A stretch of 64,000 nucleotides of DNA from Holophaga sp. (GTDB lineage: Bacteria > Acidobacteriota > Holophagae > Holophagales > Holophagaceae): NCBI GenBank assembly GCA_031292735.1, contig JARLGP010000310.1:1-64000 (forward strand), given 5' to 3'. Of this stretch, positions 19,689-29,026 are shown in pieces. Position 1 is the stretch's first letter; every line of letters starts with the position of its first letter. A program made the position numbers and the translations under genes. A model generated the notes under the pieces. The model had not been told where the DNA came from and did no database searches. It was given only the letters and a program-made list of their open reading frames with translations.

Positions 19689-21284
19689 ATGCCCTTCATC
19701 CAGCCGGCCCCCAGTCTGCCCCAGCCCTACCACGCCGATCCGGCGCTGAGGGCCCTTCTGCGCCGGGCCATGGCCCCGGAGGCGCTGGCGGAGATCGAAC
19801 CGTCGCTGGCGGCCATGGGCGACCTGGCCCTCCGGCTGCACCAGCTCTCCCTGGCGGACCGGCTCAACGAGCCGCGCCACGTGCCCTTCGACCCCTGGGG
19901 CAACCGGGTGGACCGGATCGAGCCGACCCGGCTTTGGCAGGAGGCCGAGCGGATCGCCGCCGAGCAGGGCCTGGTGGCCCTGGCCTACGAGCGCAGGCAC
20001 GGGGCCGCTTCCCGGCTGCACCAGTTCGCCCTGGTGCACCTGTTCCATCCCGGCAGCGACATCTACACCTGCCCCCTGGCCATGACCGACGGCGCGGCCC
20101 GCACCCTGCTGGCCAGCGGCAACGGGGCCCTGGTGGAGCGGGCCGTGCCGCGCCTCACCAGCCGGGATCCGGCCCGGTTCTGGACCTCGGGCCAGTGGAT
20201 GACCGAAAGCAGCGGCGGTTCCGACGTGGGCCTCAGCAGCACCGAGGCGCGCCGGGACGAGGCGGGCGACTGGCGCCTGTACGGGCGCAAATGGTTCACC
20301 TCCGCCGCCGCCTCCCCGATGGCCCTGGCCCTGGCGCGGCCCCAGGGCAACCCCCCGGGCGGCAAGGGCCTGGACCTGTTCTACGTGGAGACCCGGCGGC
20401 CCGACGGCACCCCCAACGGCTTCACCGTCAACCGGCTCAAGGACAAGCTGGGCACCCGCAAGCTGCCCACCGCCGAGCTGGAGCTGGACGGGATGCTCGC
20501 CACTCCGGTGGGCGAGCTGGGCAACGGGGTGCGCGCCATGGCGCCGATGCTCAACGTCACCCGCACCTGGAACGCCGTCACCGCGGCCAGTTTCCTGCGC
20601 CGCGGAATCCTGCTGGCCCGGGACTACGCCGGCAAGCGGTTCCTGTTCGGCGCGCCCCTGGCCGGGCAGCCGCTGCACCAGGACACCCTGGGCGGGCTGG
20701 AGGCCGAGGCCCAGGGCGCCTTCCAGCTGGCCTTCCACGGGGCCGAACTGCTGGGCCTGGTGGAATCCGGGGACGGCGACGGGGCCCTGCAGCGCCTGCT
20801 CACCCCGCTGGTGAAGCTCACCACCGCCCGGCAGGCGGTGGCCGGGTGCAGCGAAATCCTGGAATGCTTCGGCGGGGCCGGCTACGTGGAAGACACCGGG
20901 CTGCCGGTGCTGCTGCGCGACGCCCAGGTGCTCAGCATCTGGGAGGGCACCACCGACGTGCTGTCCCTGGAAGCCATGAAGGCCATGGTTTCATGCGGCT
21001 TCCAGGGCTACCGGGCCCACGTGCAGGAGCTGCTGGAGGGGGCCCGGTCCGAGGCCCTGGCGGTCCCGGAGCGGGCGGCCCGGGCCGCGCTGCTGCGGGC
21101 CGAGGCCTGGTGGGCGGGGGCGGAGGAGGCCGGCGCGCGCCGCTTCGCCCTGACCCTGGGGCGCACGCTGGCCCTGGCCCTGCTGGTGCGCCAGGCCAGG
21201 TGGGCGCTGGACCGGGAAGGGGACCCGGAGCCGTCCCGGGTCGCCCTGCGGTTCGCGGTGAACGGGGTGGACCTGCTGCACTGA
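19689..21284 (+). CDS. AidB-type acyl-CoA dehydrogenase family protein
   Basis: FAD flavoprotein, 531 aa, close in size to E. coli AidB (541). The AidB-like order is visible: long N-terminal helical domain (DPWGNRVDRIEP), MTESSGGSDVGLSSTEARR, KWFTSAAASP, KDKLGTRKLPTAELELDG, CSEILECFGGAGYVEDTG and DAQVLSIWEGTTDVLSLEA with the family catalytic-region residues. E. coli AidB is linked to alkylation stress; related proteins act on acyl-CoAs, and the substrate here is not shown. No ada gene is near. It ends 26 bp before the convergent Che operon. Confidence 0.93.
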   Translation: MPFIQPAPSLPQPYHADPALRALLRRAMAPEALAEIEPSLAAMGDLALRLHQLSLADRLNEPRHVPFDPWGNRVDRIEPTRLWQEAERIAAEQGLVALAYERRHGAASRLHQFALVHLFHPGSDIYTCPLAMTDGAARTLLASGNGALVERAVPRLTSRDPARFWTSGQWMTESSGGSDVGLSSTEARRDEAGDWRLYGRKWFTSAAASPMALALARPQGNPPGGKGLDLFYVETRRPDGTPNGFTVNRLKDKLGTRKLPTAELELDGMLATPVGELGNGVRAMAPMLNVTRTWNAVTAASFLRRGILLARDYAGKRFLFGAPLAGQPLHQDTLGGLEAEAQGAFQLAFHGAELLGLVESGDGDGALQRLLTPLVKLTTARQAVAGCSEILECFGGAGYVEDTGLPVLLRDAQVLSIWEGTTDVLSLEAMKAMVSCGFQGYRAHVQELLEGARSEALAVPERAARAALLRAEAWWAGAEEAGARRFALTLGRTLALALLVRQARWALDREGDPEPSRVALRFAVNGVDLLH

Positions 21285-21310
21285 CCGTGAGCCAACGGCT
21301 CCCGGCTGCC

Positions 21311-22240
21311 CTACTGCGCCCGGCCGGTATCCCGGAACTTGGCGCCCACGATCATCTGCAGGCCGCGGATGTGGTTCAGCACCCGCTCCAGCTTCTGCCG
21401 GGCGATGTCCTGGAACTGCAACTGGTGGATCACCCCGAACACCCGGTCCTGCAGCTCGGAGCCCAGCCGCTCGATCTCGGCCAGGTTCTTCTCCTCGCCC
21501 TTGAGCCGGCCCATGGCCGCCTCCTGCTTGAGCCGGACCAGGGCCTGGAAGCCCTTGTCGCTGCCGGCCAGCATGGCCTCCACGCAGTCGATCACCTTGC
21601 CCATCTCCTGCTCGGTGTGGTTGATGGCCTCTTCCATCTGGGGGATGATCCGGGCGCCGTCCGCCACCGCCCTGGGCGGGGCCATCTGGATGAGCTCCTT
21701 GAGCCCCTGGTCCAGGGCCACTTCCTGGTCCTCGGCGATGGCGGTGTGCAACTGCGACCGGGCGCCGTGGAAGGCGACGATGAAGGTGGGGTCCAGCAGG
21801 GCGATGATCCGCTCGCCCTGGAGGATGAAGCCGCGCACCCAGGCGCCCTCGGGCCCGGTCAGCAGCGGGCTGGCCTGCACCATCTGGTCAGGGGTGGCGG
21901 AGATGACCGCGTCCACCACGTCCACCAGGATGCCCACCGGGCTGGTGCCGCCCAGGTCGAGCACGATGATGTTCCTGGACAGGCTGGCCTCCTGCTCGGG
22001 CAGGTTCATGCGCGAGCGCAGGCTGATCACCGGGATCACCTGGCCGCGATGGTCCAGCAGCCCTTCCACGCTCTTGGGCATGTGCGGGATCCGGTTGAGC
22101 TCGGGGTGCGGGGTGATCTCGGCCACCTGGGCCAGGGGCACGGCGTAGATGTGGCCGTCCAACTGGAAGCTCAGGTACTGGCACGGGGCGGCGGAATCCT
22201 CGAGTGCGGTTTCCTGCACCGCCTCGGCCTGGATGTTCAC
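21311..22240 (-). CDS. CheW domain fused to CheZ-like phosphatase helix bundle
   Basis: 309 aa. Residues 20-165 are a CheW/CheA-P5 SH3-like domain (CQYLSFQLDGHIYAVPL, HRGQVIPVISLRSRM, IIVLDLGG, GILVDVVDAVI). Residues 200-300 form long helices with FQDIARQKLERVLNHIRG, matching the CheZ active-site helix (E. coli FQDLTGQ) and keeping the DxxxQ pair as Asp278 and Gln282. I infer a CheY-P phosphatase tethered to the receptor-kinase array. Its ATG overlaps the cheA stop (ATGA), so the two are co-translated. It is last in the operon. Confidence 0.85.
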   Translation of the reverse strand: MNIQAEAVQETALEDSAAPCQYLSFQLDGHIYAVPLAQVAEITPHPELNRIPHMPKSVEGLLDHRGQVIPVISLRSRMNLPEQEASLSRNIIVLDLGGTSPVGILVDVVDAVISATPDQMVQASPLLTGPEGAWVRGFILQGERIIALLDPTFIVAFHGARSQLHTAIAEDQEVALDQGLKELIQMAPPRAVADGARIIPQMEEAINHTEQEMGKVIDCVEAMLAGSDKGFQALVRLKQEAAMGRLKGEEKNLAEIERLGSELQDRVFGVIHQLQFQDIARQKLERVLNHIRGLQMIVGAKFRDTGRAQ

Positions 22241-24462
22241 AGGGCCTCCTCGATGGCCAGCATCATCAGTTCAGCCGGGTCGAGGATCAGCACCACCCCG
22301 CCGTCGCCCAGGATGCTGGCGCCGGAAATGCCGGGCAGGCTGGCCAGGTACGGGGCCAGGGGCTTGATCACCATTTCCTGGCGGCGCAGGAAGGCATCCA
22401 CGATGATGCCCATCCGCCGGCCGCCGGTGGAGACCACCACCACCGGGAGCTCGTCGTCCGGCTTGGCGTCCAGGTCCACGGCGTCCTTGAAGTGCAGCAG
22501 CTCGCGCAGCCGGGTGATGCCCAGCACTTCCCCGCGCAGGTTGATGGCCTTGCGCCGGGTGAGGTGGGACAAGGTCTCCCGGGGCACCAGCAGGGTCTCC
22601 TCCACGGAGGTGCCGGGCAGGGCGAACACCTGGCCGCCGGCCCTCATGAGCAGGGCATCGATGATGGCCAGGGTGAGCGGGAGCTTGATGGTGAAGATGC
22701 TGCCCTGGCCCACCGCGCTGCTCACCGCCACGCTGCCGTTGAGCTTGCGAACGTTGGATTTGACCACGTCCATGCCGACCCCGCGGCCGGAGATGTCGGT
22801 GACCTTCTGGGCGGTGGAGAAGCCCGGCAGGAAGACCAGGTTGATGGCCTCCTCGTCGCTCATCTGCTCCGCCCGTTCGGGGGTGATGATGCCCTTTTCC
22901 ACCGCCTTGGCCCGGATCACCTTGGGGTCGATGCCCTTGCCGTCGTCCTCGATCTCCACCAGCACCGAATCGCCCTCGTGCCGGGCCCGGAGCACCACGG
23001 TGCCGGTTTCCGGCTTGCCGGCCCGGGCGCGAACGTCCGGCAGCTCGATGCCGTGGTCGGCGCTGTTGCGGATGAGGTGGATGAGCGGATCGCTCAGTTC
23101 CTCGATTAGGCTCTTGTCGATTTCCGTGTCCTCGCCCACCATCTGCAGTTCGATCTTCTTGCCGGTGCTTTTGGCCAGGTCCCGGAGCATGCGCGGGAAC
23201 TTGGTGAAGATGGTCTTCACTGGCACCATGCGGATGCCCAGCACGGAAGCCTGGATCTCCTTGCTCACCTGGTCCAGGTAGATGCTGGCCTTGCGCAGTT
23301 CCTTCACCAGGTCTTCGGCGGTGGAGGGCAGGGCCTCGGTTTCCAGCCGCTCGACGATATGGCTGATCATGGTCTTGCTGATGATCAGCTCGGCCACGGT
23401 GTTCATGAAGGTGTCCAGCTTGCTCTGGGCCACCCGGATGGTGTCCGAGGACTTGTCGATGGCCTTTTCCGGCGCCTTGGCGGCGGCCGCGGCATGCACC
23501 GGGGCGGGAGCAGGACCAGGAGCAGGAGCGGGAGCAGGAGCAGGAGTCGGCGCGGCCGAAGCCGGGGCGGGGACCATCTTCGGGGCCGCCGCCTCCGGAA
23601 CCGGCAGGGCCTTGGGCGGTTCGGGCACGGCCGGGGCCGGGGCGCTGCCGAGGCCCAGCGGGAAGTAGCTCACGTTGACGTTGCGCACGCCGTCGAAGAT
23701 GCTCTTGACCGCCTCGACGGATTCCGCCGGCTGCAGGATCAGCACCAGGTCGAAGGGCACCTCGTCGGACCGGAACCGGTCCAGGTCGAGGTCCTTCATG
23801 ATGCAGGAGGAATGGATCAGGCGGCCCACCAGCTCCACCATGGGCAGCATGGCCAGCGGGTTGAAGTGGGTGCCGAGGATGGCGGGCAGCAGCTCGATCC
23901 GCATGGCCAGCACGGTCTCGCCGCGCTTGAGGGCGGCTTCCGCGGCCTGGACCGCTTCCCGGTCGAGGGTCGCCAGGGGCTCCGGCAGGGTGAGGACGGG
24001 GTCCTGGGGGATCGCCGCGGGCGCGGCTGCGGCCACGGCGGCGGCGGGCTGGCCGCCCCCCTTCAGCGCGCTCAGCCGGGCGATGAGGTCGCTGGTGTCG
24101 GGATCCACCGGGGTCCCCTGCTTGCGCAGGTTGACGCCCACGTCCTCGACCAGGACCTTGAGGGTGTCCTCGGTCTCGAACAGCAGCTCCATCACCTGGG
24201 GGCTCACGGTCATCCGGCCCTTGCGCAGGTCGTCCAGCACGTTCTCGCCGATGTGCGCCAGGGCCTGCACCTTGGCCAGGCCCAGGAAGCCGGAGGCGCC
24301 CTTGATGGTGTGCACGCTGCGGAAGATGGAATTGAGGATTTCCAGATCGCCGGGCGCTCCTTCCAGGGTCAGGAAGTTCTGCTCGATCTGCTCGAAGTGC
24401 TCTCCGGCTTCCACCAGGAAGTCTTCGTAGAAGCTGGGATCATCCAGGGAAAAATCACTCAT
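22237..24462 (-). CDS. cheA: Chemotaxis histidine kinase CheA
   Basis: 741 aa hybrid of P1-P5. The HPt domain has His51 in SVHTIKGASGFLGL; a Pro/Ala linker (about 290-330) follows the P2-like region; the dimerisation domain precedes the ATPase (LIHLIRNSADHGIE, EIEDDGKGIDP, GRGVGMDVVKSNV, GQGSIFTIKLPL); and a C-terminal CheW-like P5 ends the chain. It phosphorylates CheY at 26522. It lies 3 bp after the triple CheW gene. There is no receptor (MCP), CheR or CheB gene in this cluster. Confidence 0.97.
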   Translation of the reverse strand: MSDFSLDDPSFYEDFLVEAGEHFEQIEQNFLTLEGAPGDLEILNSIFRSVHTIKGASGFLGLAKVQALAHIGENVLDDLRKGRMTVSPQVMELLFETEDTLKVLVEDVGVNLRKQGTPVDPDTSDLIARLSALKGGGQPAAAVAAAAPAAIPQDPVLTLPEPLATLDREAVQAAEAALKRGETVLAMRIELLPAILGTHFNPLAMLPMVELVGRLIHSSCIMKDLDLDRFRSDEVPFDLVLILQPAESVEAVKSIFDGVRNVNVSYFPLGLGSAPAPAVPEPPKALPVPEAAAPKMVPAPASAAPTPAPAPAPAPGPAPAPVHAAAAAKAPEKAIDKSSDTIRVAQSKLDTFMNTVAELIISKTMISHIVERLETEALPSTAEDLVKELRKASIYLDQVSKEIQASVLGIRMVPVKTIFTKFPRMLRDLAKSTGKKIELQMVGEDTEIDKSLIEELSDPLIHLIRNSADHGIELPDVRARAGKPETGTVVLRARHEGDSVLVEIEDDGKGIDPKVIRAKAVEKGIITPERAEQMSDEEAINLVFLPGFSTAQKVTDISGRGVGMDVVKSNVRKLNGSVAVSSAVGQGSIFTIKLPLTLAIIDALLMRAGGQVFALPGTSVEETLLVPRETLSHLTRRKAINLRGEVLGITRLRELLHFKDAVDLDAKPDDELPVVVVSTGGRRMGIIVDAFLRRQEMVIKPLAPYLASLPGISGASILGDGGVVLILDPAELMMLAIEEAL
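23502..23552 (-). repeat. Low-complexity GGAGCA repeat encoding an Ala-Pro linker in CheA
   Basis: Imperfect hexamer repeat on the plus strand (GGAGCA/GGAGCG) that on the coding strand encodes alternating Ala-Pro (PAPAPAPAPGPAPAP). It is a flexible linker between the P2-like and dimerisation domains, and is prone to length variation by slippage. Confidence 0.75.
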
Positions 24463-24465
24463 GGC

Positions 24466-25980
24466 TCAGCCTTTTTTCTTTCCCTGGAAGGCCTGTAGCT
24501 GTTGGCCCTCCACCTCTGTGAGGAGACACTGTACGTTCAGCAGGAAGATGACGTTCTGGTCCACGCGGGCCACTTTCTCGATGAAAGCGTTGGCCCCGAC
24601 CGCGGTGACCCGGGGAGGATCCTCCAGCCGCCGCTCGTCGACGCTCTTGACCTCCTCCACGGAATCCACCACCAGCCCGGTGCCCACCCCGCCGATGGGG
24701 GTGATGACGATCCGGGACACGCTGGTGACCGGCTGCCGGGGCAGGCCGAAGCGCTCGCGCAGATCGATCACCGGCATCACCTCGCCGCGCAGGTTGAGCA
24801 CGCCGTCGATGAACGACGGGGCCCGGGGAATGGGGGTGATGTTGCCGACCATGATGATTTCCCGCACCTCGTGCAGGCGGAGCGAGTAGGCCTCGCTGCC
24901 CAGGCGGAACACCACCAGCGGCAGGTCGAAGTTGGCCGCGGTCTCCGCCGGCCGGTCCGGCATGAGGCTGGAGCTCATGGCGGCGATCTTGGCCTGGTCC
25001 TCGCCGTTGATGATGTCCATGACCTTGAGCAGGCTCACCATGCGGTCGGAGCGGAGCACGATCCCTTCCAGGTCGGCCGCCTCCCGCTCGCTCAGGGTCT
25101 GGGGCGGGGGCAGGATGTCCTCTTCCCGGACCCGGATGATCTCCTGGATGCCGTCCACCACGATGCCCAGCTTGGCCTGGCCGAAGCTGAGCAGGATCAC
25201 CATGTCCCCCTGCACCGGCTGTTCCGCCGGCTCGGTGTGCAGCAGCTGGATGAAGTCCAGCAGGGGCAGCACCTGATCGCGCAGGCAGATGACCCCCAGC
25301 ACGTAGGGCGGGGCGTCCGGCACCTTGGTGACCGCGGGCAGTTCGATGATCTCTTCCACCATCTTCAGGTTGATCCCGAAGGATTCCCGGCCCAGGGTGA
25401 AGGTGACGTAGGGCAGCTCGTCGTCCACCTCCTCCACCACCGCCTGGGTGGCGCCGGACGTGAAGATGCCCGAGCCCGCGCCCTTCTCGATCAGGCTGAC
25501 CCGCTCGCCGAACTCGGTGGAATCCAGGATCTTCTCGAGATTGATGAGGGTGATCAGGCGGTTGGCCGCGGTGACCATGCCGGCCAGGTAGTCGCTGCGC
25601 ACGCCGGCCACCAGGGGCGGGGTGTCGCGCAGGGTGAAGTCGTCCAGCTTGACCACCTCGGAAACCGAATCGACCATGAGCCCGGTGGCCTGCCCGGCCA
25701 GATCCAGGATGATGATGCGGGTCTTGGCGGTGGGGGCCTTGGGCGGAAGATGGAAGCGAAGCCGGCTGTCCAGCACCGGGATGATGCTGCCGCGCAGGTT
25801 GACGATGCCCAGGACGAAACTCGGCGAGCCGGGCACCGGGGTGATGTCGGTCCGCTGGGTGATTTCCTGGACCCGGTCGATATCCAGACCGAATTCCACC
25901 TCGTCGAGGGTGAAGGTCACCAGCTGGCCCGAAGGGACGATGTCGAGGGCCTGCTTTGTCTGGAGTTCCGCGGTGGCCAT
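24466..25980 (-). CDS. Protein with three tandem CheW domains
   Basis: 504 aa made of three CheW-like SH3 modules at about 15-160, 185-330 and 345-495. Each shows the family pattern: VTFTLDEVEFGLDI/IVNLRGSIIPVLD, VTFTLGRESFGINL/VICLRDQVLPLLD and VFRLGSEAYSLRL/VLNLRGEVMPVID. Single-domain CheW links receptors to CheA. A triple unit should bridge several receptors or kinases and could shape the array lattice; this role is inference. The N-terminus is hydrophilic, so it is cytosolic. It sits between the CheZ-like and cheA genes with 3-bp gaps each side. Confidence 0.93.
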   Translation of the reverse strand: MATAELQTKQALDIVPSGQLVTFTLDEVEFGLDIDRVQEITQRTDITPVPGSPSFVLGIVNLRGSIIPVLDSRLRFHLPPKAPTAKTRIIILDLAGQATGLMVDSVSEVVKLDDFTLRDTPPLVAGVRSDYLAGMVTAANRLITLINLEKILDSTEFGERVSLIEKGAGSGIFTSGATQAVVEEVDDELPYVTFTLGRESFGINLKMVEEIIELPAVTKVPDAPPYVLGVICLRDQVLPLLDFIQLLHTEPAEQPVQGDMVILLSFGQAKLGIVVDGIQEIIRVREEDILPPPQTLSEREAADLEGIVLRSDRMVSLLKVMDIINGEDQAKIAAMSSSLMPDRPAETAANFDLPLVVFRLGSEAYSLRLHEVREIIMVGNITPIPRAPSFIDGVLNLRGEVMPVIDLRERFGLPRQPVTSVSRIVITPIGGVGTGLVVDSVEEVKSVDERRLEDPPRVTAVGANAFIEKVARVDQNVIFLLNVQCLLTEVEGQQLQAFQGKKKG

Positions 25981-25983
25981 GAT

Positions 25984-26505
25984 TTATTCCTTGTTCAAGC
26001 TGCGCTTGAATTCATCCACCACGGAATCCGCGTGGGCCCGCTGTTCGTCGGGGGTGGTGCCGGTGGAGGCGATGGTGCGGCTGATGGAGGCCCGCTCCCC
26101 TTCGCTCTTGAGCCCGGTGCCCAGGAGGTCGACGATGTAGTCGTGGATCTGGCGCAGGTGGTGCACGATCCGTTCCAGCTTCTGCCGGGTGATGTCCTGG
26201 AACTGCATGAGGTCCATGGCTTCGTAGACCTTGCTCTGGATGTCCTTGGCGGCGGCCATCACCTGGTTGATGGCGTCCTGCACCGAGGGATCCTGGGCGC
26301 CGGCATGGCGCATCACGCCGGTGATGAGGGCCTGCTGGGTGGCCACCAGGTTGCTGATCAGATCCAGCTGGTCCATGACCTTGTTGGTCTCGCGCTCGGT
26401 GACCGCGGTGACCGCGTCCAGCTCGGAGATCACATGCCCCTGGCCGTCCGTCGGGGTGGCCCCGGCGGCCGGGGCCTTGAGAGTGTCGATTTCGGATTGG
26501 TCCAT
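25984..26505 (-). CDS. CheZ-like CheY-P phosphatase
   Basis: 173 aa, helical. The segment YEAMDLMQFQDITRQKLERI aligns with the E. coli CheZ active-site helix (MMAQDFQDLTGQ) and keeps the DxxxQ catalytic pair as Asp104 and Gln108. A Pro/Ser-rich stretch and a short acidic-hydrophobic C-terminal helix (SVVDEFKRSL) resemble the CheZ CheY-binding tail. E. coli CheZ is 214 aa, so this is compact. It lies 16 bp after cheY and 3 bp before the triple CheW gene. A second copy of the same motif is fused to CheW at 21311. The symbol is withheld because overall identity is low. Confidence 0.8.
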   Translation of the reverse strand: MDQSEIDTLKAPAAGATPTDGQGHVISELDAVTAVTERETNKVMDQLDLISNLVATQQALITGVMRHAGAQDPSVQDAINQVMAAAKDIQSKVYEAMDLMQFQDITRQKLERIVHHLRQIHDYIVDLLGTGLKSEGERASISRTIASTGTTPDEQRAHADSVVDEFKRSLNKE

Positions 26506-26521
26506 GAGCCCTCCAGAGGGT

Positions 26522-26878
26522 CTAGCCGAGCAGTGATTCGATCTTTTCCTTGAGGGTATCCGGTGTGAACGGCTTGACCACGTAGTTGTTCACCCCCGCC
26601 TGCAGGGCCTGGACGATGTCCTCCTTGGCGGCGTTGGTGGTGACCATCAGGATGGGGATGGAGGCGTTCTGGGCCCGCACCGCCTGGACGAATTCCAGCC
26701 CGTCCATCTCGGGCATGTTCCAGTCGGTGATGATCATCTCAACCCCGCCCTGGCCCAGCTTTTCCAGCCCGGCCTTGCCATGCTCGCCTTCCACCACGTC
26801 GGTGTAGCCGATCCTGGAAAGGGTGTTGATGATGATGCGGCGCATCGTAGAAGAGTCGTCCACGATTAGGATCTTCAA
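26522..26878 (-). CDS. cheY: Response regulator CheY
   Basis: Single receiver domain, 118 aa. The acidic pair Asp7/Asp8 (LIVDDSSTMRR), phospho-acceptor Asp52 (IITDWNMPEMDG), Thr80/Thr81 and Lys102 (YVVKPF) are all present. It would be phosphorylated by CheA and dephosphorylated by the CheZ-like proteins of the same operon. It could signal to flagella or to type IV pili; no motor gene is in the window. Confidence 0.96.
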   Translation of the reverse strand: MKILIVDDSSTMRRIIINTLSRIGYTDVVEGEHGKAGLEKLGQGGVEMIITDWNMPEMDGLEFVQAVRAQNASIPILMVTTNAAKEDIVQALQAGVNNYVVKPFTPDTLKEKIESLLG

Positions 26879-26909
26879 GGGGAACTCCTTTTAGGTTCGG
26901 TCATCCAGT

Positions 26910-27302
26910 TCACTCGTCCGCGCCGGCGGAGGCCTCGACGAATTTGCGCAGAGCTTCCTGGTCGTCCGGGTAGACATTCAGGAACTTCACACCCAGTTCG
27001 AAATCACCCGCATCCAAGGTCTCGATCCGGACCACCTGGCCCACCGCCACCAGCGGCCGGAGATCCTGGTCGCTCGCGGGCCCGAAGTGCCCCTGGTGCT
27101 TGCCCCAGCCGGGCACCCTCAGCTCCAGCTTGAGCAGGGTTCCCAGCGGGAAGCTCCGGGCCGAACTGAGCAGCAGGCCGCCCGCGGAGATGTCGCCGTA
27201 GACGCTGGTGGCTGGCTCCGGAGTGGTGGAGAAGGAAAGCTCCTGGAAGCCCACGGTGGCTCCCATGGGAATCCGACGAAAATGGCGGCGATCGGAAGGC
27301 AT
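26910..27302 (-). CDS. PilZ domain protein
   Basis: 130 aa. The PilZ c-di-GMP motifs are visible: RRHFRR near residues 5-10 and DISAGGLLL (D/NxSxxG) near 38-46. The rest is the PilZ beta barrel (LLKLELRVPGWG, VVRIETLDAGDFELGVKFLN). It is a stand-alone binding protein probably linking c-di-GMP to chemotaxis or motility output. It is the gene just before cheY (31 bp). Confidence 0.9.
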   Translation of the reverse strand: MPSDRRHFRRIPMGATVGFQELSFSTTPEPATSVYGDISAGGLLLSSARSFPLGTLLKLELRVPGWGKHQGHFGPASDQDLRPLVAVGQVVRIETLDAGDFELGVKFLNVYPDDQEALRKFVEASAGADE

Positions 27303-27445
27303 GGCAAGGGGTCCTATGTCTGCTTAACGGAAAGTACCAATGAAACCATGAATGTTCCTGAGTTCAAGTTTATTGCAACACGGTGCCGCCCCGGCAGAAA
27401 GCTTTGACTTTTGTCCAATTATTAATTCCAGCTCTTCCCGGAACC

Positions 27446-29026
27446 TTACTGCCACGGCACTTCGAACGGACAAACCGGGTGTTCGATCCCCTTGAGCGAC
27501 ACCGGCTGGATGGGCACCAGGCCATCGGTGCCGATCAGTTCCGCGGTGCGCGGGCCGGCCACGACCTGGCCGGGCTGGGCCACCCCGCTTTCCAGCCGGG
27601 AGGCCAGATTCACGGTGGAACCCATGACGGTGTAGTCCATGCGCTTCTCGCAGCCGATGTCCCCGGCGAAGGCTTCGCCGCTGTTGATGCCGATCCGCAT
27701 GCGCAGCTCCGGGTAGCCCTCCGGGCGGTTCCCGTTCATGAGCTTGAGCCCCTGCTGCATGGCGATGGCGGCGTCCACCGCATGGCGGGCGTGGTCCGGG
27801 TCCGGGGCCGGGGCGCCAAAGAAGGCCATGATGGCGTCGCCGATGTACTTGTCCAGGGTGCCCCCGCGCAGGAAGATCTGCTCGGTCATCACCTCGAACG
27901 AGCGGTTGAGGATGGAGGCCAGCTCCAGCGGCTCCATCCCCTCGGACATCCGGGTGAACCCGGAGATGTCGGCGAACAGCACCGAGATCTCGCAGCGGCG
28001 GGCCTGCAGCAGCGGCGCGTCCAGGTTCTGGGCGGCGCGGAGGATCTCGCTCACCACCTGGGGGCTGTGGTAGCGCTCCAGCCGCTGGCGGAACCGGGTT
28101 TCCCGCTCCCGCTGGATGCCCACCGCGGCGAAGTTGGCCATGGCCGACAGCAGGTGCTCGTCCTCCCGCTTGAAGCCGCCCTTGGCCAGGCTGGATTCCA
28201 GGTAGACCACCCCCAGCGCCTGGTCGTCCACGATCAAGGGGGCGCACAGGGCGGAGGAGATGCCGTGGATCTTGATGCTTTCCCCGGCGGCGAAGCGGGG
28301 GTCGACCCGGGCGTCGGTGGTGAGGATGGTCACCTGGTCGGCCATGGCCTTGCGGGCGATGGTCCGGCTGATGGGGGTGGCATTGGCGCCGGGCCTCTCC
28401 TCCCAGACATACTCGGGCACCAGCTCGCCGGCGGGGTTGACCAGCAGGATGAAGCCGCGCTGGCAGCGGATCTGGCCGGTCACCAGGGTCATCACCGAAT
28501 CCAGCAGCTCCGCCAGCCCGGCGGCGCCCAGCAGCTTGCCGGCCATGGCCGCCAGCCGCTGGAACAGGGAGTCCACCACGGCCGCCGGGCTTTCCGCCTG
28601 GTGCTTGGCCAGCATGGCCTCGATGCTGGCGTGGGGCACGAAGATGCTGGCCGAGGGGTCCAGCGCCCGGTCTTCCAGCGCGATCTTCGCTTCGCCCGTG
28701 GCCTTGGCTCCGGCGGCGGTGGACAGATGGGTGGGGGCGGGCTCCTCCTCCACCCAGCGCACCGGCACTTCCCCCAGCAGGGCGGTGTCGCCCGGCAGCA
28801 TGGCCGCCGGTTCCTTCACCGGCACATCGTTGAGGCTGGTGCCGTTCAGGGAGTTCAGGTCGGTCACCCACACCTGGCCGTCCCGGAGGAAGAACCTGGC
28901 ATGCACCCGGCTCACGGCGTTGGAATTGATCCGGATGTCGGCGGCGGTGCCGCGGCCGATGGTGGTCCCCTCCTCGGTGAGGTCCAAGATGTGCCTGGCT
29001 CCTTCCACGAGCAGGATGATTTTCAT
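27446..29026 (-). CDS. Adenylate/guanylate cyclase with FHA and GAF domains
   Basis: 526 aa, three domains. The N-terminal FHA (about 1-95: TIGRGTAADIRI, SRVHARFF, NGTSLNDV) binds phospho-Thr peptides. The GAF domain (about 165-310) includes GFILLVNPAG. The class III cyclase domain (about 335-520) has LFADISGFTRM (first metal Asp), LDKYIGDAIMAFFGAP (second metal Asp, Lys) and TVMGSTVNLASRLE. The metal residues are intact, so it should be active; cAMP is likelier than cGMP but specificity is not certain. It lies 143 bp ahead of PilZ on the same strand and divergent from rimO (73 bp between starts), with TAAAAT near 29051 as a possible -10. Confidence 0.95.
   Translation of the reverse strand: MKIILLVEGARHILDLTEEGTTIGRGTAADIRINSNAVSRVHARFFLRDGQVWVTDLNSLNGTSLNDVPVKEPAAMLPGDTALLGEVPVRWVEEEPAPTHLSTAAGAKATGEAKIALEDRALDPSASIFVPHASIEAMLAKHQAESPAAVVDSLFQRLAAMAGKLLGAAGLAELLDSVMTLVTGQIRCQRGFILLVNPAGELVPEYVWEERPGANATPISRTIARKAMADQVTILTTDARVDPRFAAGESIKIHGISSALCAPLIVDDQALGVVYLESSLAKGGFKREDEHLLSAMANFAAVGIQRERETRFRQRLERYHSPQVVSEILRAAQNLDAPLLQARRCEISVLFADISGFTRMSEGMEPLELASILNRSFEVMTEQIFLRGGTLDKYIGDAIMAFFGAPAPDPDHARHAVDAAIAMQQGLKLMNGNRPEGYPELRMRIGINSGEAFAGDIGCEKRMDYTVMGSTVNLASRLESGVAQPGQVVAGPRTAELIGTDGLVPIQPVSLKGIEHPVCPFEVPWQ

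Follow-up and report, generated by a model that had tools for sequence, protein, structure and literature searches.

A conserved CheW-CheZ-like fusion protein encoded together with a free CheZ-like protein in a chemotaxis gene cluster of Holophagae-type Acidobacteriota

The window analyzed here, a stretch of 64,000 nucleotides from a Holophaga sp. contig (JARLGP010000310.1), encodes a protein in which a CheW domain is followed by a CheZ-like helical hairpin with a DxxxQ pair, and this arrangement is a real in-frame fusion that is conserved among related genomes. We consider it probable that the protein is an array-resident CheY-P phosphatase that lacks the C-terminal CheY-docking helix of the E. 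coli type; its catalysis, dimerisation, docking and location in the array are what we infer. The fusion gene starts within the last bases of cheA, the two sharing four bases (GTGA), and translational coupling of the two genes is therefore probable. The features of the fusion are:

21311..22240, minus strand: CheW-CheZ-like fusion gene, 309 aa, with a GTG start at 22240 and its end at 21311
21785..22180, minus strand: CheW domain, residues 21-152, PF01584 E 2.1e-29
21677..21718, minus strand: conserved short linker segment LDxxLxxLIxxAP, within residues 175-188, with variable linker around it
21515..21649, minus strand: CheZ-like hairpin helix 1, residues 198-242, as predicted by the model; aligns with the stand-alone CheZ-like protein
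21320..21493, minus strand: CheZ-like hairpin helix 2, residues 250-307, as predicted by the model; NF041271 match at residues 254-300
21395..21415, minus strand: FQDIARQ, residues 276-282, containing Asp278 and Gln282

A previous reading made from the sequence only had claimed a full CheW domain and a CheZ-like part in one frame, and this was borne out: PF01584 covers residues 21-152 with 102.4 bits, exceeding the gathering score of 23.5, and the helical hairpin lies downstream in the same frame. For comparison, 40 fusion sequences with identity down to 53%, the window's own included, were picked from 120 listed of 370 matches and aligned; PF01584 matches all 40 (E≤0.05). An AlphaFold model built from these sequences (mean pLDDT 68.6) predicts a CheW fold, a helix at residues 158-186 and long helices at 198-242 and 250-307, with pLDDT of 50-81 per ten-residue block in the hairpin helices, and its best structural matches are CheW chains. 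A misread frame or a broken gene as the source of the fusion is ruled out, because 51 of the 93 genomes sampled from one class give a match (Holophagae-type Acidobacteriota, by hit names; E≤1e-20), among which two (G028 and G070) are matched in part only and three rows have one stop in the aligned stretch. An in-frame ATG at residue 186 follows AAGGAG by six bases and could start a free CheZ half, comparable to CheA-short; this candidate internal start is Met in only 9 of the 40 sequences.

The C-terminal half was also proposed earlier to be CheZ-like, with Asp278 and Gln282 in FQDIARQ as the active pair. The residue numbering is right, and the two residues have the CheZ catalytic spacing (DxxxQ) and lie on the second helix of the hairpin. 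A looser form of the FQDxxxQ motif occurs also in unrelated frames, and the motif alone is therefore no evidence. PF04344, the profile put forward as a check, returned no match to the window's fusion (E≤1) and matched none of the 40 aligned sequences (E≤0.05). The NCBIfam model NF041271 (Phos_CheZ), on the other hand, matches residues 254-300 with E 4.8e-5, its 23.0 bits not approaching the curated equivalog cut-off of 350, and 39 of the 40 aligned sequences are matched at E≤0.01 (best 2e-7). We take NF041271 to be, probably, the ‘remote CheZ’ type of Campylobacterota; CheZ of this type resembles the fusion in that its model matches the C-terminal half, and differs from it in being a stand-alone protein. 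The model is distinct from that of E. coli CheZ, which matches NF008368 only (E≤0.01). Among 297 genomes of the phylum, 19 are matched by NF041271 (E≤0.001), 18 of them also carrying the fusion gene and the other being G343, and none of 14 control genomes is matched; NF041271 is no general coiled-coil magnet.

A free CheZ-like protein, unmentioned in the earlier reading, is encoded in the same operon, and one gene cluster thus holds two CheZ modules. The neighboring features are:

22237..24462, minus strand: cheA, 741 aa, with Hpt, dimerisation, HATPase and CheW-like domains (Pfam)
24466..25980, minus strand: triple-CheW protein, 504 aa, PF01584 in three stretches
25984..26505, minus strand: stand-alone CheZ-like protein, 173 aa, NF041271 E 5.9e-13
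26182..26202, minus strand: FQDITRQ of the stand-alone CheZ-like protein, residues 102-108
26476..26505, minus strand: N-terminus MDQSEIDTLK of the stand-alone CheZ-like protein, a variant of MDQSEIDALL that resembles the way FliM begins in related genomes, MAKILSQEEVDALL
26522..26878, minus strand: cheY, 118 aa, PF00072 E 5.1e-31 and NF007901 E 1.8e-38, the presumed substrate
26910-27302, minus strand: PilZ protein, preceding cheY
27446-29026, minus strand: FHA-GAF-cyclase protein, preceding cheY

PF04344 does reach the free protein of the window, with E 1.7e-4 and 22.0 bits, under the gathering cut-off of 30.7. We aligned 35 stand-alone CheZ-like sequences, including that of the window and picked from 120 listed of 461 matches, and PF04344 matches 34 of them (E≤0.05); some relatives of the free protein already bear CheZ in their database names. 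Its AlphaFold model (mean pLDDT 60.8) predicts helices at residues 21-65 and 73-130. A profile of the free protein found no match better than E 0.84 among PDB sequences.

The two CheZ-like modules of the operon are similar to one another over both helices of the hairpin, and the earlier caveat that the alignment rests on one helix no longer applies. Fusion residues 198-292 align with the free protein at 27% identity (BLASTP E 4e-10, for the single comparison), and profile-profile comparison of the C-terminal half with the free protein gave a probability of 98.2. A profile of fusion residues 190-309 (n=40) scored 48.0-58.2 bits on all 35 stand-alone CheZ-like proteins. Masking the catalytic 12-mer lowered these scores to 13.0-24.1 bits, still above the maxima of 8.4 for 1050 shuffled and 6.0 for 35 reversed sequences. 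In the reciprocal test the stand-alone profile scored 37.1-54.5 bits on the fusions when unmasked; when masked, its scores fell to 2.9-20.6 bits (median 10.9), the highest among 1200 shuffles being 9.3, so that the signal was only partly above noise. A chance motif is ruled out, since the similarity spans both helices and survives masking of the 12-mer. Taken with the hairpin, the DxxxQ pair and the NF041271 match, this similarity supports the CheZ-like assignment; the PF04344 match put forward as its check fails for the fusion, and the earlier interpretation as a whole is supported in part.

Direct comparison with the classical protein was negative. In a search of 3088 stop-to-stop frames (E≤10), E. 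coli CheZ was missed by both C-terminal profiles. When it was compared on its own by hhalign, the probability was 1.4 for the fusion, with the alignment off the motif, and 3.6 for the free protein. What connects these proteins to classical CheZ is therefore NF041271 together with the sub-threshold PF04344 match of the free protein. A different C-terminal fold had been named as grounds for rejecting the assignment; the AlphaFold model has the two long helices, and for the hairpin the fold lists show common hairpins among the matches listed. Foldseek with the fusion model returned CheW and CheA chains followed by weak unrelated matches, and with VIA-align 2 the helical parts of both the fusion and free-protein models matched hairpins and bundles of common helical types. 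Solved CheZ is absent among the matches listed, which speaks neither for nor against a CheZ fold. Precomputed PF28017 annotations are present for all 120 listed relatives of the free CheZ-like protein and, among the 120 listed for the fusion, for 56; Pfam scans of the fusion and free CheZ-like sequences did not return PF28017.

Asp278 and Gln282 are invariant in all 40 aligned sequences, the window's included, and [FY]QDI[AV]RQ is present at each of the 32 genome loci scanned for the motif. The alignment has 80 invariant columns, and the longest invariant run comprises residues 277-288; residue 275 is also invariant and residue 276 is Phe or Tyr. As a whole the hairpin is better conserved than the CheW domain, with a mean entropy of 0.75 bits in each helix versus 0.99. 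The linker between them is variable except for the 14 residues of LDxxLxxLIxxAP (entropy 1.07 bits versus 2.00 and 1.84 for the pieces on either side), in which L180, L183 and I184 are invariant in 40 of 40 sequences and which is predicted to be mostly helix (residues 175-188 of the AlphaFold model). This segment is a possible CheY-docking peptide, because a short helix that is conserved while the linker around it varies would suit such a role and because its hydrophobic spacing resembles the VDALL of FliM. By alignment and model the fusion ends with the hairpin, and no C-terminal CheY-binding helix past a flexible linker is recognizable in it. The D(D/E)WF motif is absent from all stop-to-stop frames of at least 60 residues with their low end in 21000-27000.

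The conserved cluster has the order cheY-cheZ-cheW3-cheA-cheWZ. Both CheZ-like proteins were found in 50 genomes, and in 45 of these they share contig and strand, the gene of the free CheZ lying 3654-3999 bp upstream of the fusion; in the remaining five they are on different contigs. This count takes one free-CheZ row per genome (53 rows), leaving out a second row of G037 and weaker rows that represent fusion C-termini and other paralogs. In the seven stretches of the cluster that were compared, the order CheZ, triple CheW, CheA and CheW-CheZ is kept throughout, and CheY and PilZ precede it in six, the seventh stretch ending there. The FHA-GAF-cyclase gene is present in three of the seven; in one stretch (L060) a MiaB-like gene adjoins PilZ with no cyclase between them. 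A relative of the triple-CheW protein occupies the same place, between the free CheZ and CheA, in all seven.

At the level of the phylum, the fusion was found in at least 25 of 396 genomes (E≤1e-25; among the matches listed, with up to five candidates per genome given a score), and all 25 belong to the class sample. The whole-genome searches covered this one phylum, and the protein database was the source beyond it. Listed homologs with an organism name are assigned to Holophaga, Geothrix, Mesoterricola or Holophagaceae. Where the 120 listed of 370 relatives of the fusion carry a source name, they are called CheW, CheW-like, chemotaxis signal transduction protein or hypothetical protein, and surveys by name would therefore miss the proposed phosphatase.

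How such a protein might work can be outlined from its parts. As in the CheW family generally, the CheW domain of the fusion would take the place of a CheW beside CheA and the receptors, and the linker would present the CheZ-type hairpin. In E. coli CheZ, Asp143 and Gln147 act on CheY-P; Asp278 and Gln282 may act in the same manner. CheA would phosphorylate CheY, and dephosphorylation could take place at the same site as CheY-P leaves; the phosphatase dose would follow the array, and signal making and erasing may sit in one place on it. Because CheZ works as a dimer, the probable partner of the fusion hairpin is either another copy of the fusion or the operon's free CheZ. Tethering at the source of CheY-P, or the conserved linker helix, may replace the missing docking helix, and the free CheZ could act in the cytoplasm or partner the fusion. 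The presence of that free CheZ counts against the phosphatase reading, as the fused domain might then not be needed for catalysis.

The fused hairpin could instead be an anchor, forming a mixed four-helix bundle with the free CheZ and bringing it to the array, a job that CheA-short does for CheZ in E. coli. Several observations fit such a role: one conserved cluster encodes both proteins (on the same contig and strand in the 45 of 50 genomes given above), their hairpins are similar along their length, and the fusion lacks the conserved segments found at the N- and C-termini of the free protein. A hairpin serving purely as an anchor could do without Asp278 and Gln282, yet both are invariant in the whole alignment, and a mixed dimer would still have an active-site pair on each chain, so catalysis remains compatible with the arrangement. 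We regard anchoring as an unlikely explanation of the fusion.

Two other explanations appear far weaker. That the hairpin is a dimerisation or spacer element linking two CheW domains, with DxxxQ as a relic, would suit the commonness of long helical hairpins, which the fold search cannot separate; a relic, however, would not keep the longest invariant run of the protein precisely where the catalytic segment lies, and we consider this very improbable. Equally little speaks for a phosphatase whose target is a receiver domain other than that of the operon's CheY. Related genomes do contain further CheZ-like genes, and the modules may be split among receiver proteins, but cheY belongs to the same conserved cluster and has the sole receiver domain among the seven proteins scanned (21311-29026), which leaves a different target highly unlikely. 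A phosphatase acting on CheY-P at the array is the reading that we retain.

The N-terminus of the free protein may suggest a further division of labor. It fits the pattern Q[ST][ED]IDx[LM][LM] in 32 of the 35 aligned sequences (e.g., MDQSEIDALL), and that of the window, MDQSEIDTLK, is one of the three outside the pattern. FliM is present in all ten related genomes tested and starts in each with MAKILSQEEVDALL, followed by KSH (nine genomes) or RSH (one). The N-terminal peptide of FliM binds CheY-P. We know of no CheZ with a FliM-like peptide at its N-terminus, and none was found in the portions of the open-licence literature covered. Tentatively, and with somewhat less than an even chance of being correct, we propose that CheZ is split over two sites in one operon, with an array phosphatase placed through CheW and a free CheZ bearing a FliM-like CheY-P peptide. 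The fusion would erase the signal at its source, and the free CheZ would capture cytoplasmic CheY-P in competition with FliM; if so, phosphatase and array adaptor are genetically tied together by the fusion. Bacillus FliY is a phosphatase that likewise has a FliM-like N-terminal CheY-P peptide, as is apparent in the free CheZ here; FliY differs in its CheC-type fold and its location in the flagellar switch.

E. coli CheZ (PF04344, NF008368) shares with the fusion an FQDxxxQ on the second helix of a long hairpin and, presumably, the chemistry on CheY-P. It differs in being a separate protein placed through CheA, in having a C-terminal CheY-binding helix and D(D/E)WF (PMC7750401), and in being missed by sequence searches from the fusion. 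Placement of E. coli CheZ through CheA, to which D(D/E)WF contributes importantly, is described in a study that approached the role of this placement with localisation mutants (PMC7750401), and other reports approach it by simulation and modelling (PMC1447658, PMC2673030). A lineage in which a CheZ-like domain is welded to CheW is a natural experiment on the purpose of CheZ placement at the array.

Other ways of combining array components with an off-switch have been described. CheV consists of a CheW domain and a receiver domain and is proposed to be a phosphate sink (PMC4742279); it resembles the fusion as a CheW adaptor with a second domain that may limit CheY-P, and differs in having a receiver domain in place of the phosphatase hairpin. 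CheA-CheC/CheX fusions occur in Leptospirae (PMC10542144), and like the CheW-CheZ fusion these join a phosphatase domain to a core component of the array, with another phosphatase fold and another partner. The fusion would add another answer, beside CheV and CheA-CheC/CheX, to the question of where the array keeps its off-switch. No CheW-CheZ fusion was found in the portions of the open-licence literature covered, and the sole instance of ‘CheW fused’ found in those portions is a two-hybrid construct. Judged by their titles, the open-licence papers listed include none that treats the chemotaxis genes of the Geothrix/Holophaga group.

Further CheZ-like forms occur in related genomes. In G343, which lies outside the 93-genome class sample, a CheZ-like protein with FQDINRQ is encoded at L055:543-1184 (minus strand). 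A HAMP-CheZ protein is encoded at L062:1741-2727 (plus strand), a locus different from the cheY-cheZ-cheW3-cheA-cheWZ cluster; PF00672 is over its cut-off there, and PF04344 reaches 37.6 bits versus the cut-off of 30.7. Other related genomes have open frames of 315-358 residues with a match to this same stretch of the CheZ model NF041271. In this one architecture, HAMP-CheZ, the CheZ module of the lineage therefore meets the Pfam definition.
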